DNA of 37,317 nt, from assembly GCA_022763385.1 (NCBI GenBank), contig JALEGQ010000197.1, positions 1-37,317 on the forward strand, given 5' to 3'. How positions within the stretch are numbered: the stretch's first letter is position 1; every line of letters starts with the position of its first letter. This DNA comes from a bacterium (lineage in GTDB: Bacteria > Bdellovibrionota_C > UBA2361 > RFPC01). The notes beneath the pieces were generated by a model. That model made no database searches and was not told where the DNA came from. It saw nothing but the letters and a program-made list of their open reading frames with translations. The translations under genes and the position numbers were made by a program. Positions 1 through 4,912 of the stretch are shown here, in pieces.

Positions 1-687
1 AATCAGATGGATCGCTATCTCCTGGAGCCGGTTGCGGATGGCTACGATGCTGTTGTTCCCGATCCCATGCAGCGTGGGGTAAGAAACGTTTTTGAAAATC
101 TCGCCTATCCCCGATACCTCGTGAGTGATCTCGTGCAGTTGAAGTTCGGACAGGCGGCTGAGCATACGGGAAGATTTCTCGTCAATAGCACCCTCGGGCT
201 CGGGGGGCTTATCGATGTGGCGAAACATCTCGGATGGGAGAGACATTCGGAAGACTTTGGAACCGCTCTGGGGCATCACGGAGTCCCAACTGGCCCGTAT
301 GTGGTTATCCCGTTTCTTGGCCCCTCGAATATGAGGGACGGTTTTAGCCGGATCGTCGACAACTTTCTCTCTCCCGTACCGTGGATAGCGGCAGAGACGA
401 GTAGCGACAACGACGCGGTGGCTATTACTCTCGGAATGACGGCGTTGGATGTGATTCAGACCCGTGCGGATCTCGATGAGGCGATTAATGCGGCCCAAGA
501 AGCGTCTCTTGATTACTACCTCTTTATTCAATCGGCATACGCCCAGCGGCGGTTTGCGGTGATTCATGATCTCCAGATTGAAGATTCGCCCACTGCTCTG
601 GAAAATGAAGCCGATCCCTTTGCTGAGGATGAGGCTTTTGATGAGGCGTTTGCGGGGGAAGGTGGCTACGGGCTGGGCAACGAGTAA
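1..687 (+). CDS. mlaA: MlaA (VacJ) family outer-membrane lipid-asymmetry protein, 5' end cut by window edge
   Basis: MlaA sits in the outer membrane with porins and passes mislocalised phospholipids from the outer leaflet to the Mla retrograde pathway. The reading frame is open to base 1, so the true start and the lipoprotein signal lie upstream; only about 228 codons are visible. Family hallmarks are clear: the segment VVPDPMQRGVRNVFENL, then FLVNSTLGLGGLIDVAKHLG, then GVPTGPYVVIPFLGPSNMRDG, which is the conserved core of VacJ/MlaA. The last 25 or so residues are very acidic and glycine-rich and look like a non-conserved tail. The TAA stop at 685-687 lies inside the left inverted repeat of a MITE-like element, so the element may have set the present C-terminus. 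No other mla genes are in the window. Confidence 0.93.
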   Translation, partial: NQMDRYLLEPVADGYDAVVPDPMQRGVRNVFENLAYPRYLVSDLVQLKFGQAAEHTGRFLVNSTLGLGGLIDVAKHLGWERHSEDFGTALGHHGVPTGPYVVIPFLGPSNMRDGFSRIVDNFLSPVPWIAAETSSDNDAVAITLGMTALDVIQTRADLDEAINAAQEASLDYYLFIQSAYAQRRFAVIHDLQIEDSPTALENEADPFAEDEAFDEAFAGEGGYGLGNE

Positions 688-883
688 CCGTCCAGCTTTT
701 TGGCGCTGTTCGCTGCGGGCGCTGAGGCGCCCTACGCGACTCTCTGCTGGTTGCTTTCCCAGAGGGAAAGCTTTGCAGAGAGCATCGTCAGGGTGGGTGG
801 GGCCGTGCTCAATGTACCACACGTACGCCTCCGCGCGTCCCCACCCACCCTTCCTCGACAGCACCAAAAATCTGGACGGTTAC
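684..883. repeat. 200-bp MITE-like element with 25-bp terminal inverted repeats
   Basis: Bases 684-708 and the reverse complement of 859-883 match at 23 of 25 positions, giving terminal inverted repeats that begin GTAACCGTCCAG. Inside are two further hairpins. The first has outer arms 740-747/775-782 and inner arms 754-760/764-770 with an AGA loop. The second has perfect 13-bp arms at 790-802 and 839-851 around a 36-nt loop. No convincing protein is encoded. This is the architecture of a non-autonomous miniature inverted-repeat element or a structured intergenic repeat. The left end overlaps the stop codon of mlaA. No clear target-site duplication is visible beside the ends. Confidence 0.7.
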
Positions 884-930
884 ATTCCCTTGTGGAGGGA
901 GTTGATGGGGGGGGAGTTTTGTGTTGCCCT

Positions 931-962
931 CGTCCAGCTTTTCGGCGCTGTTCGCTGCGGGC
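931..962 (+). repeat. Extra copy of the element's left end (32 bp, one mismatch)
   Basis: Bases 931-962 repeat bases 689-720 in direct orientation with a single T/C difference. They carry the inner part of the terminal repeat plus 12 bases beyond it. This is a solo end or the remnant of a second element. It lies in the otherwise non-coding stretch 688-1044, where I find no gene, tRNA or other feature beyond these repeats. Confidence 0.75.
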
Positions 963-2471: not shown

Positions 2472-3245
2472 CTAATCACGTGAGCTGTAGATCTTCGAGA
2501 GGAGTCGGAGAATCTCCACATAGAGCCAGATGAGGGTCACGAGCAGTCCGAAAGCCCCAAACCACTCCATGTACTTCGGTGCAGAACGGCTCTTAGCTGC
2601 TCTTTCGATAAAGTCGAAGTCGACAACGAGGTTCAGCGCCGCAATCCCGACCACGAAGAGCGAGAACCCGATCCCGATCACTCCAGAACCGTGGATGTAG
2701 GGGATGGAGCCACCGAAGAGGTTCACGACCAGAGAGATAAGATAGACGATAGCGATACCGCCGGTAGCGGCAAAGATCATCATCTTAAACTGCTCTGTTA
2801 CCTTGATCATTCCACTGCGATACGCGGCAAGGAGTGCAAACAGGGTCCCAAAGGTCAGCGTGACCGCCTGGAACACGATGGAACTGTCGAGCCCGAGCCC
2901 GCCATCAAATCCACCCTGTGGAGAAGAGGTCGACGCGGCATAGAACAGTGAGAGCGTCCCGAGAAAAAAGCCTTCGACAACGGCGTACACTGGGGTGAGA
3001 AACGGCGCCCAATTCTGCTTGAAGCTGATCGCGATGGCGATTCCGAACCCACCGATCGCAAACACCCACATCAACGGGGCGAAAAAGCTCGGGTCGCTAA
3101 ATGACCAGTAGGCCGCAGCAATGGTGAGCATAACCGAGATGAAGGTCTTATTGACCGTCCCTTCAATCGTCATCACATCACCGCTCGCTGCGTATTCGCC
3201 GCGAAACATCTTTTCACTCAGTACTGGATTTGAAGTCTTAATCAT
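2472..3245 (-). CDS. Bax inhibitor-1/YccA-YetJ family membrane protein
   Basis: This is a 257-residue polytopic protein of the BaxI_1 type. Bacterial relatives such as YetJ act as pH-sensitive calcium leak channels; others bind the FtsH protease. The N-terminus carries the diagnostic SNPVLSEKMF and MTIEGTVNKT motifs of this bacterial subfamily. Seven hydrophobic segments follow, at roughly residues 34-50, 54-74, 82-103, 121-141, 155-176, 187-209 and 229-249. The acidic motif VVDFDFIE (Asp209, Asp211), just after the sixth segment, corresponds to the conserved Asp region implicated in the pH sensor. ATG 3245 is preceded by AAGGA about 13 bases upstream, a slightly long spacing. The 69-bp gap to the next gene on this strand suggests an operon. 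The cellular role here is inferred from the family only. Confidence 0.9.
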   Translation of the reverse strand: MIKTSNPVLSEKMFRGEYAASGDVMTIEGTVNKTFISVMLTIAAAYWSFSDPSFFAPLMWVFAIGGFGIAIAISFKQNWAPFLTPVYAVVEGFFLGTLSLFYAASTSSPQGGFDGGLGLDSSIVFQAVTLTFGTLFALLAAYRSGMIKVTEQFKMMIFAATGGIAIVYLISLVVNLFGGSIPYIHGSGVIGIGFSLFVVGIAALNLVVDFDFIERAAKSRSAPKYMEWFGAFGLLVTLIWLYVEILRLLSKIYSSRD

Positions 3246-3432
3246 CGCTTTCTTTCTGTCCTTATCTCTCGTTACGAGAATTGCACGGTATTAGGCGACT
3301 GTGTCACAGAATGCGCTTCTTCGACACCGTCCTTTACCTCATTATTCACATAACCATATTCCTCCCGGATTGCGAGTGAAAACGGAGGGGTGGAGAGGCA
3401 TCTTGACGAGAGAGGATTCTCGAGTATATTCT

Positions 3433-3482
3433 AAAAATGGCACCATTTTTGGAACGAATATTCCAGAAATGGCACCATTTTT
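3433..3482. repeat. Two tandem palindromic motifs (32-bp period) upstream of the AAA_14 gene
   Basis: The imperfect palindrome AAAAATGGCACCATTTTT occurs at 3433-3450 and again, less its first two bases, at 3467-3482. Each copy is followed by a related (G/A)GAAC(G/A)AATAT, so the repeat unit is about 32 bp, roughly three helical turns. The second copy ends 20 bp before the start codon at 3503. The position and spacing suit a paired operator for autoregulation of the ATPase gene, although I cannot name the repressor. The rest of 3246-3432 holds only the presumed upstream region of the divergent BI-1 gene. Confidence 0.65.
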
Positions 3483-3502
3483 AGAACAAATATGCACCGT
3501 AT

Positions 3503-4912
3503 ATGTCTAAATATCTGAAAAGAAAGGATTTTTATCGAGTCGTCGACTATTTCCGAAATGGGCGGGTGAAACCGCTTGTTCTCCGTGGAGCTCGACAGGT
3601 TGGAAAGTCCACTCTGGCCAGAATGGTCGCCGAAGAGCTTGGTCGTAACCTTGTTGAAGTCAACTTTGAAGTTACGAAATTACGCGAACTCAACAACTCG
3701 ACGTCTTTTCAGATCGATCGAGTGATTAAAGAGATCGAACTCAGTCAGCAGTGCACTGTTGGACCAGATACGATGCTGTTCTTCGATGAAATACAGGCGC
3801 AACCTGAAGCGGTTGCAGCGCTTCGCTATTTCTATGAGGATCGACCCGAGATTCCTGTGGTCGCAGCGGGTTCTTTGCTGGAGGTCATGTTACGGAAGCA
3901 CCGCGTTGGAATGCCTGTCGGGCGAATGAACTCTATGTTCATCGGTCCGATGACCTTTTTCGATTTTGTTGCGGCTATGGATCGTCCTGATCTCGTGGAC
4001 TACCTGACTTCAGTGGATCTCCAAGACTCTTGGCTTGCTGCCAGCCATGATGCATGTGTTGACCTTTTGAAGCAGTACTACTACGTCGGAGGTATGCCGG
4101 AATCAATACAGACTTTTCGAGAGTCTAGAAGCTTTGAAGAGGTGAGATACTTACAGAAGAATCTCCTTCAAACCTTTCGCGATGATGCGCTGAAGTATAC
4201 GACCTCTTCAGAGTTTTCTTTAGTGCAATCAATTCTCGATTACCTGCCCAAAAATCTGGGGCGAAAGGTCGTTTTCTCACATATCGCTCAAACCCACTCT
4301 CAACGTATTCGTGATGTTTTGGAGACTCTCGCCCTTGCTGGGTTCTTACACCCGGTGTACCACACGCATGGGAGCGGTGTTCCACTACTTTCAGGAGAAA
4401 ATAGCGCTCTTTTTAAGCTCTATCTGTTGGATATTGGGCTGTATAGCTCGATGCTCGATGTCGATATAAACAGCCTTTTAGGAGCAGAGCTTCCAGAGCT
4501 GCTGGCTCAAGGAGCACTTGCGGAACAGTTTGTGGCGCAACACCTTGTTTCGCTTGCATCACATGCTGAAGCTCCAAGGCTCTACTACTGGATGAGAGAG
4601 GGACGGTCTCATGCCGCTGAAGTTGATTTCATTCTCCCTCATCGGGGACGACTTTTTCCTTGTGAAGTAAAGTCCGGCGCGACCGGAAAGATGCGATCAC
4701 TGTGGCATTTTGTTGCAGAAAAAGAGGTGCCACTAGCGCTTCGGATGAACCTTTCATGTCCAGATCAGATGATTACTCACGTTCAGCATGGGCTGTTCAG
4801 TGGGGGAAGCCGGAAAGAGGTTGAAGCTGATCTCCTCTCCGTTCCGCTCTACGCAGTAGAAAATACACTGAAGTTTATCGACCAGTACGTTGATAGCGCG
4901 CATTCATCTTGA
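3503..4912 (+). CDS. AAA_14 / DUF4143 ATP-binding protein
   Basis: This 469-residue protein has an N-terminal AAA_14 ATPase domain and a C-terminal DUF4143 domain. The P-loop GARQVGKS is at 29-36, Walker B LFFDEIQ at 92-98, and the sensor segment VVAAGSLLEVML is typical. The C-terminal region contains AEVDFILPHRGRLFPCEVKSG, an Asp...Glu-x-Lys arrangement like a PD-(D/E)XK nuclease core, as is common in DUF4143. These proteins are abundant, mobile and poorly understood; toxin-antitoxin-like or defence-related roles have been suggested. The ATG at 3503 has no obvious Shine-Dalgarno. The gene looks less GC-rich than its neighbours, which together with the tandem operator-like repeats upstream suggests an acquired gene. 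Confidence 0.9.
   Translation: MSKYLKRKDFYRVVDYFRNGRVKPLVLRGARQVGKSTLARMVAEELGRNLVEVNFEVTKLRELNNSTSFQIDRVIKEIELSQQCTVGPDTMLFFDEIQAQPEAVAALRYFYEDRPEIPVVAAGSLLEVMLRKHRVGMPVGRMNSMFIGPMTFFDFVAAMDRPDLVDYLTSVDLQDSWLAASHDACVDLLKQYYYVGGMPESIQTFRESRSFEEVRYLQKNLLQTFRDDALKYTTSSEFSLVQSILDYLPKNLGRKVVFSHIAQTHSQRIRDVLETLALAGFLHPVYHTHGSGVPLLSGENSALFKLYLLDIGLYSSMLDVDINSLLGAELPELLAQGALAEQFVAQHLVSLASHAEAPRLYYWMREGRSHAAEVDFILPHRGRLFPCEVKSGATGKMRSLWHFVAEKEVPLALRMNLSCPDQMITHVQHGLFSGGSRKEVEADLLSVPLYAVENTLKFIDQYVDSAHSS

Follow-up and report, generated by a model that had tools for sequence, protein, structure and literature searches.

The window (the whole 37,317-nt stretch of DNA analysed here) opens within mlaA, an entry of the ORF list at positions 7–687 of the + strand (PF04333, E=2.8×10−60) whose 5′ end is cut by the contig edge. 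Its stop codon TAA (685–687) lies inside the sequence GTAACC that begins at 684. The downstream neighbour in the ORF list, a frame of 83 aa on the same strand, occupies 1039–1290, and the gap between the two consists of a palindromic unit of 200 bp (684–883), a tail reaching to ~925 and ~40 bp of a second unit, all read on the + strand.

The 200-bp unit is predicted to fold into a P1 stem, two side hairpins and a long arm that we call P4. The left terminal arm at 684–709 begins with GTAACCGTCCAGC, and an inner, inverted copy of it lies at 858–883; the two are 92% complementary over 26 nt. Side hairpin 1 (711–738) and side hairpin 2 (740–782; CTCTCTGC..GCAGAGAG) were placed by mapping RNAalifold consensus helices 2–3 and 4–5, respectively, onto the window copy. 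P4 spans 790–851, with hairpin arms at 790–808 and 833–851 in the window copy. It is built from an outer stem of 11 pairs, a conserved internal loop and an inner GTACC..GTAC hairpin, and it recurs in other elements.

An earlier, sequence-only reading of this DNA had described inverted ends at 684–708 and 859–883, nested inner hairpins and a left end containing the mlaA stop codon, all of which are real. It had also taken 931–962 for a solo end. A third end copy is indeed present there, but it is neither inverted nor solitary: positions 689–723 and 931–965 are direct copies with 94% identity and a start-to-start distance of 242, and the copy belongs to the beginning of a second unit in head-to-tail arrangement (926–965), which is truncated near 962–965 and lacks the GTAAC terminus. 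Similarly, 684–883 was delimited correctly as a unit, whereas the element itself runs past 883 with a tail (884–925) that had been missed. This tail is without a TTAC end here, and its extent is based on the 241-bp length of copies with duplicated targets and on the second-unit offset of 242. No target duplication is visible in the 8 bases flanking the window copy, whose right side is truncated.

Copies, ends and the probable IS66-type partner

We searched the assembly from which the window is taken (G000; 3.07 Mb, 228 contigs, 86.5% complete) and found copies at ~20 separate loci with identities of 76–95%, in line with the earlier suggestion of a family spread through this genome. It also occurs in G003 and G005, which come from two other genera of this family, and it is absent from the whole genomes of two same-genus relatives and of one further genus of the family. 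A single copy at a site conserved in all relatives, which the earlier reading had named as favouring a structured RNA, is thus not the situation encountered. Viral contigs, phages and plasmids were searched as well and gave no match.

Oriented copies fall into two layouts. Type A consists of the unit, which measures 198–201 bp without regard to reading frame, and a tail of ~41 bp ending in GTGAATGCTTAC or a variant of it, for a total of 241 bp. Comparison of the 8 bases on each side revealed duplications of 8/8 at L012, L014 and L023 (L023 has an internal deletion) and of 7/8 at L010 and L018 in G000. Duplications were likewise found in G003 (L062, 8/8 despite a right end other than TTAC), in G005 (L043, L063 and L073, 7/8) and in G011 from another family of the order (L064 and L069, 8/8), where the unit is shorter and the tail has 20 bp. 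Duplications of 7/8 or 8/8 therefore accompany 11 copies in four genera, and the family combines small size, lack of coding capacity, terminal inverted repeats, dispersed copies and target duplications, as expected of a miniature inverted-repeat transposable element (MITE).

Type B is the window's kind and carries a second unit in direct orientation (10 copies tested). The second unit starts 241–244 bases from the first in nine of them and 223 bases in the tenth, that is, after one element length; each resembles its own first unit and each stops at a different point. Three further copies (L016, L020 and L022) end within the first unit, and the left end is missing in L019 only. For a comparison of right junctions with native empty sites, the intergenic DNA of relatives is too diverged to be mapped.

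The fixed left and variable right boundaries could reflect one-ended or rolling-circle insertion next to GTAA rather than erosion. Such a process would explain why the left end is intact in at least 12 copies, whose right breakpoints differ, and missing in one, why second units are like their own first units and why such copies carry no duplications. However, because the left end also serves as a stop codon, it would be preserved by selection during decay of the right side; moreover, the right ends of several copies (L003, L007 and L016) have decayed in steps, and other members have clean duplications. We regard one-ended insertion as unlikely.

Other repeats were seen in and around the copies. 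Two different element copies of G005 (L043/L058 and L068) contain a nested repeat, the hairpin CCCCCTTCGCCAAGGCTACGGGGGACAGGCAG, and the right flanks of L002, L007 and L014 contain nearby palindromes, GGGTGTCAGACACCC or GTGTCTGACACC, that apparently belong to another repeat family.

GTAA ends are typical of the IS66 family. The sole gene for an IS66-type transposase (PF03050) in G000 lies on contig C132 (locus L032, 3306–4712), within an element whose boundaries are GTAAGCATTCACGTA (at 3219) and GTGAATGCTTAC (last base 4735). Its left end matches the tail end of the type A copy L012 over 15 bp (GTAAGCATTCACGTA). The transposase frame is broken by a TAA at 3669–3671, which leaves ORFs at 3306–3671 and 3738–4712 in one frame; TnpB_IS66 was looked for and not found. 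The search for a transposase with the same ends, proposed in the earlier reading, thus yielded one IS66-type element with matching ends and an interrupted gene. The 8-bp duplication around this element, CTGAAGC(A), has lost one base on its left side. No PF03050 match was found in G003 and G005, though both carry the MITE. Positions 255–2569 of G001:C87 (L107) hold another, distinct IS66 element, which is bounded by GTAATGCCCCC ends and flanked by GGAGAGAG as a perfect 8-bp duplication; its host G001 is a same-genus genome without the window's MITE.

The window element shares with IS66-family insertion sequences the end GTAAGCRTTCA, the 8-bp duplications and a resident PF03050 transposase with matching ends; 8-bp repeats are tabulated for two IS66-family elements (PMC3281130). 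It differs from them in being non-coding and in its folded 200-bp unit, which has a second, inner inverted end and a tail. The MITE-like character proposed at the outset is upheld by the ~20 genome copies, the 8-bp duplications and the transposase element with matching ends.

Judging from sequence comparison, we consider it highly probable that a miniature transposon of 241 bp, mobilised in trans by a DDE transposase of the IS66 family, is present at 684–965 as one copy and part of another. The dispersed copies, the fixed GTAA left end and the covarying multi-branch fold described below support this view. The element would have inserted as a tandem dimer at the 3′ end of mlaA; its left end would have been retained because it is now the stop codon of mlaA, while the right part, any duplicated target included, would have eroded. 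Given the in-frame stop in the sole transposase gene and the divergence of the copies to 76–95%, the family is probably no longer moving.

Fold, covariation and possible functions

Folded as RNA, 684–883 has a predicted energy of −123.2 kcal/mol compared with −70.8±4.5 for shuffled sequences (z=−11.7), and folding as DNA likewise gives z=−11.7. Among the 70 consensus pairs of 19 full units, 34 have changed on both sides, compared with 20±2 in shuffles and 9–12 in slid structures; 95.6% of cells are paired, against 84.4% in shuffles and 37–49% in slid structures. On the + strand, three wobble pairs hardly vary. Elsewhere, G-U (20 cells) does not exceed A-C (26) at variable pairs, and a DNA-level fold or neutral decay once the copies had inserted therefore fits better than selection on RNA.

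The very stable fold, the strong covariation, the conserved unpaired motifs and the same-strand placement directly after stop codons at ~10 genes would suit a structured RNA maintained by the host at mRNA 3′ ends, acting as terminator, stabiliser or regulator and coupled to translation by the stop overlap. Such an RNA is quite improbable: besides the G-U and A-C counts, same-genus relatives lack the element at the 9 sites inspected and genome-wide, and several copies are intergenic with target duplications. Furthermore, no terminator-like site was found, and Rfam 15 returned no family at gathering score for the window or related elements, P4 included. Instead, the fold may act at the DNA level in the element's own movement.

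Compensatory changes could also arise without selection on the fold, if template switching during replication re-templated imperfect hairpin arms. The arms are long near-perfect palindromes and the G-U and A-C departures are about equal, in keeping with this mechanism, but arm correction leaves the conservation of unpaired junction and loop motifs across families unexplained. Template switching is compatible with the MITE interpretation, and we think it rather unlikely as the source of the covariation.

Further candidates were considered and rejected. An integron attC site has a conserved RYYYAAC / GTTRRRY core; the element end varies between GTAACC and GTAAGC with compensatory change, so the AAC/GTT core is not kept. 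A minus-strand hammerhead ribozyme (CUGACGA) was dismissed on the ground that the motif differs between families, and minus-strand coding (open frame YVWYIEHGP) on the ground that unit lengths change by non-multiples of three.

The P4 arm in elements with different ends

The P4 model R2 matched within the same phylum in G011, G014, G016 (33–41 copies) and G040, and outside it in the order to which a Desulfobulbaceae MAG belongs (28 of 146 genomes, with up to 32 matches per genome). The ends of the carriers vary. They are IS66-like GTAA with an 8-bp duplication in G000, G003, G005 and G011 and CTAGAGCGTGTTATGCAC in G040; other carriers end in CCTAAATCCTGCAG with 5-bp AT-rich repeats (judged by eye), in GATGGCGTCG..TTAGCCATC or in TTTTCGCCCAA..GAACGAAAA. 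A distinct P4-carrying element in G040 (L138 and L132) occurs in near-identical copies with 25-bp ends, CTAGAGCGTGTTATGCACTTTTTCC, which look IS5/IS427-like.

Generic hairpin pairing inflates the E-values that covariance models give between families, with minus-strand matches reaching up to 70 bits, and R2 had been trained on such sequences. For these reasons P4 homology was re-tested with a sequence-only profile made from the G000, G003 and G005 copies. Over 103 kb, this profile matched L176 (3.7×10−8), L180 (7.7×10−7), L186 (1.1×10−5) and L179 (1.7×10−5), while shuffles scored at most 6.7 bits; after scaling to the ~500 Mb covered by the scan, L176 and perhaps L180 remain significant individually and the others count as a group. 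The link to the Desulfobulbaceae MAG order therefore looks real. A patescibacterial locus, L035, was rejected as a relative and is probably a chance match: its genome has no R2 match, and in 257 Gb, both strands included, a scan pattern with 18 fixed bases should give ~7 matches by chance.

Unpaired junction and loop motifs are kept across families with different stems, and a CGTC-type tag (TCGTC or TCGTT) lies directly 5′ of P4 in most of them. Given this tag, P4 might be a CGTC-tagged REP that a Y1 transposase (IS200/IS605-like) perhaps mobilises. Like the window element, GTAG- and CGTC-tagged REPs are found at gene 3′ ends, the CGTC tag lies beside their stem, and GTAG REPs often provide the TAG stop of the flanking upstream ORF (PMC3733652). 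The genome also has three Y1 transposase matches (G000:C111:22675, C31:16734 and C117:4922). Yet none of the three overlaps a copy and only one is on a shared contig, >15 kb away, and 8-bp target duplications indicate a DDE transposase. In addition, P4 is far longer than the structure described for the four families CGTC-1 to CGTC-4 (a stem of 8–9 bp with A-T as the first two pairs, a 4–5 nt loop and a CCA tail), and it departs from that description in its stem, its loop and its 3′ flank. The window element as a whole is far larger than these REPs and has IS66-type ends with 8-bp duplications. We therefore hold a REP origin of P4 to be very improbable.

With bacterial MITEs such as RUP, NEMIS, ERIC, Nezha and QMITE, the element shares a length within 70–300 bp, terminal inverted repeats, the lack of coding capacity, dispersal and a strong predicted hairpin (PMC10969869, PMC3733652). 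Unlike them, it has a covarying three-branch core, exact head-to-tail dimers and a core arm common to elements with other ends. The MITE itself is of an ordinary kind, and its unusual feature is the interior arm; we found no description of this arm recurring in otherwise different small elements.

On sequence grounds the element is best classified among MITEs as a new family of IS66 type, for which a transposase partner has been identified and which shares a conserved module with other elements; an annotation gap thereby becomes a defined MITE family with a likely transposase. P4 appears to be a conserved interior module common to elements with different ends, across the phylum and the Desulfobulbaceae MAG order. 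Our best guess is that it has a DNA-level role in the element's transposition or replication. More tentatively, and with somewhat less than even confidence, P4 might be an independently spreading, sequence-specific folded module in miniature elements of different transposases in at least two phyla, where it would benefit its various carriers alike, for instance if its RNA or single-stranded DNA bound a factor of the host or of transposition. The presence of one arm in elements with several kinds of ends suggests that bacterial MITE interiors, usually treated as filler, can be a conserved part in their own right.

Stop codons supplied by the left end

The TAA of GTAA closes the upstream ORF at L001, L002, L005, L007, L008, L009, L015, L016 and L022. 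At L006 a mutated GTGA does so, and at L020 a native TAG overlaps the element's first G. The left end hence supplies the stop codon of mlaA and of 8–9 other genes, which offers clean, testable cases of a mobile element providing stop codons at natural protein ends.

According to the sequence-only reading, the insertion may have truncated or extended the mlaA frame, and a comparison of C-termini was proposed. The mlaA product exceeds its counterparts in the two same-genus genomes by 7–9 residues, so that extension by the insertion is possible, but in two other relatives it is 24–31 residues longer and the tail is variable. The other testable sites are unchanged or a few residues shorter. Orthologues in relatives stop at the same residue for PriA (4/4), the DegP-like PDZ protein (4/4), the ribonucleotide reductase small chain at L020 (4/4) and the gene at L022 (1/1), and those of the response regulator end within one residue. 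Later ends were found in orthologues of the globin (0–7 residues), the L005 gene (2–6) and AccA (2–3). Since the relatives' PriA and DegP-like genes end at the same residue without a copy, there was no truncation at those genes.

Random insertion would place the TAA in the reading frame in one third of cases. Gene-end sites account for 11 of 20 here, with a binomial probability of 7×10−7 at an assumed rate of 10% and of 0.04 at one third. This is suggestive of more gene-end insertions than expected from a spread over intergenic DNA, for which the rate is assumed, and ordinary IS66 targeting does not account for the many copies located exactly at gene ends.

Two further junctions involve neighbouring genes. 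At L013 (G000:C133, ~1510) the stop codon of a convergent gene on the far side seems to come from the element tail, and at L003 (G000:C216, 1500) the left end directly adjoins the ATG of a divergent ORF (MDFFEHRR...).
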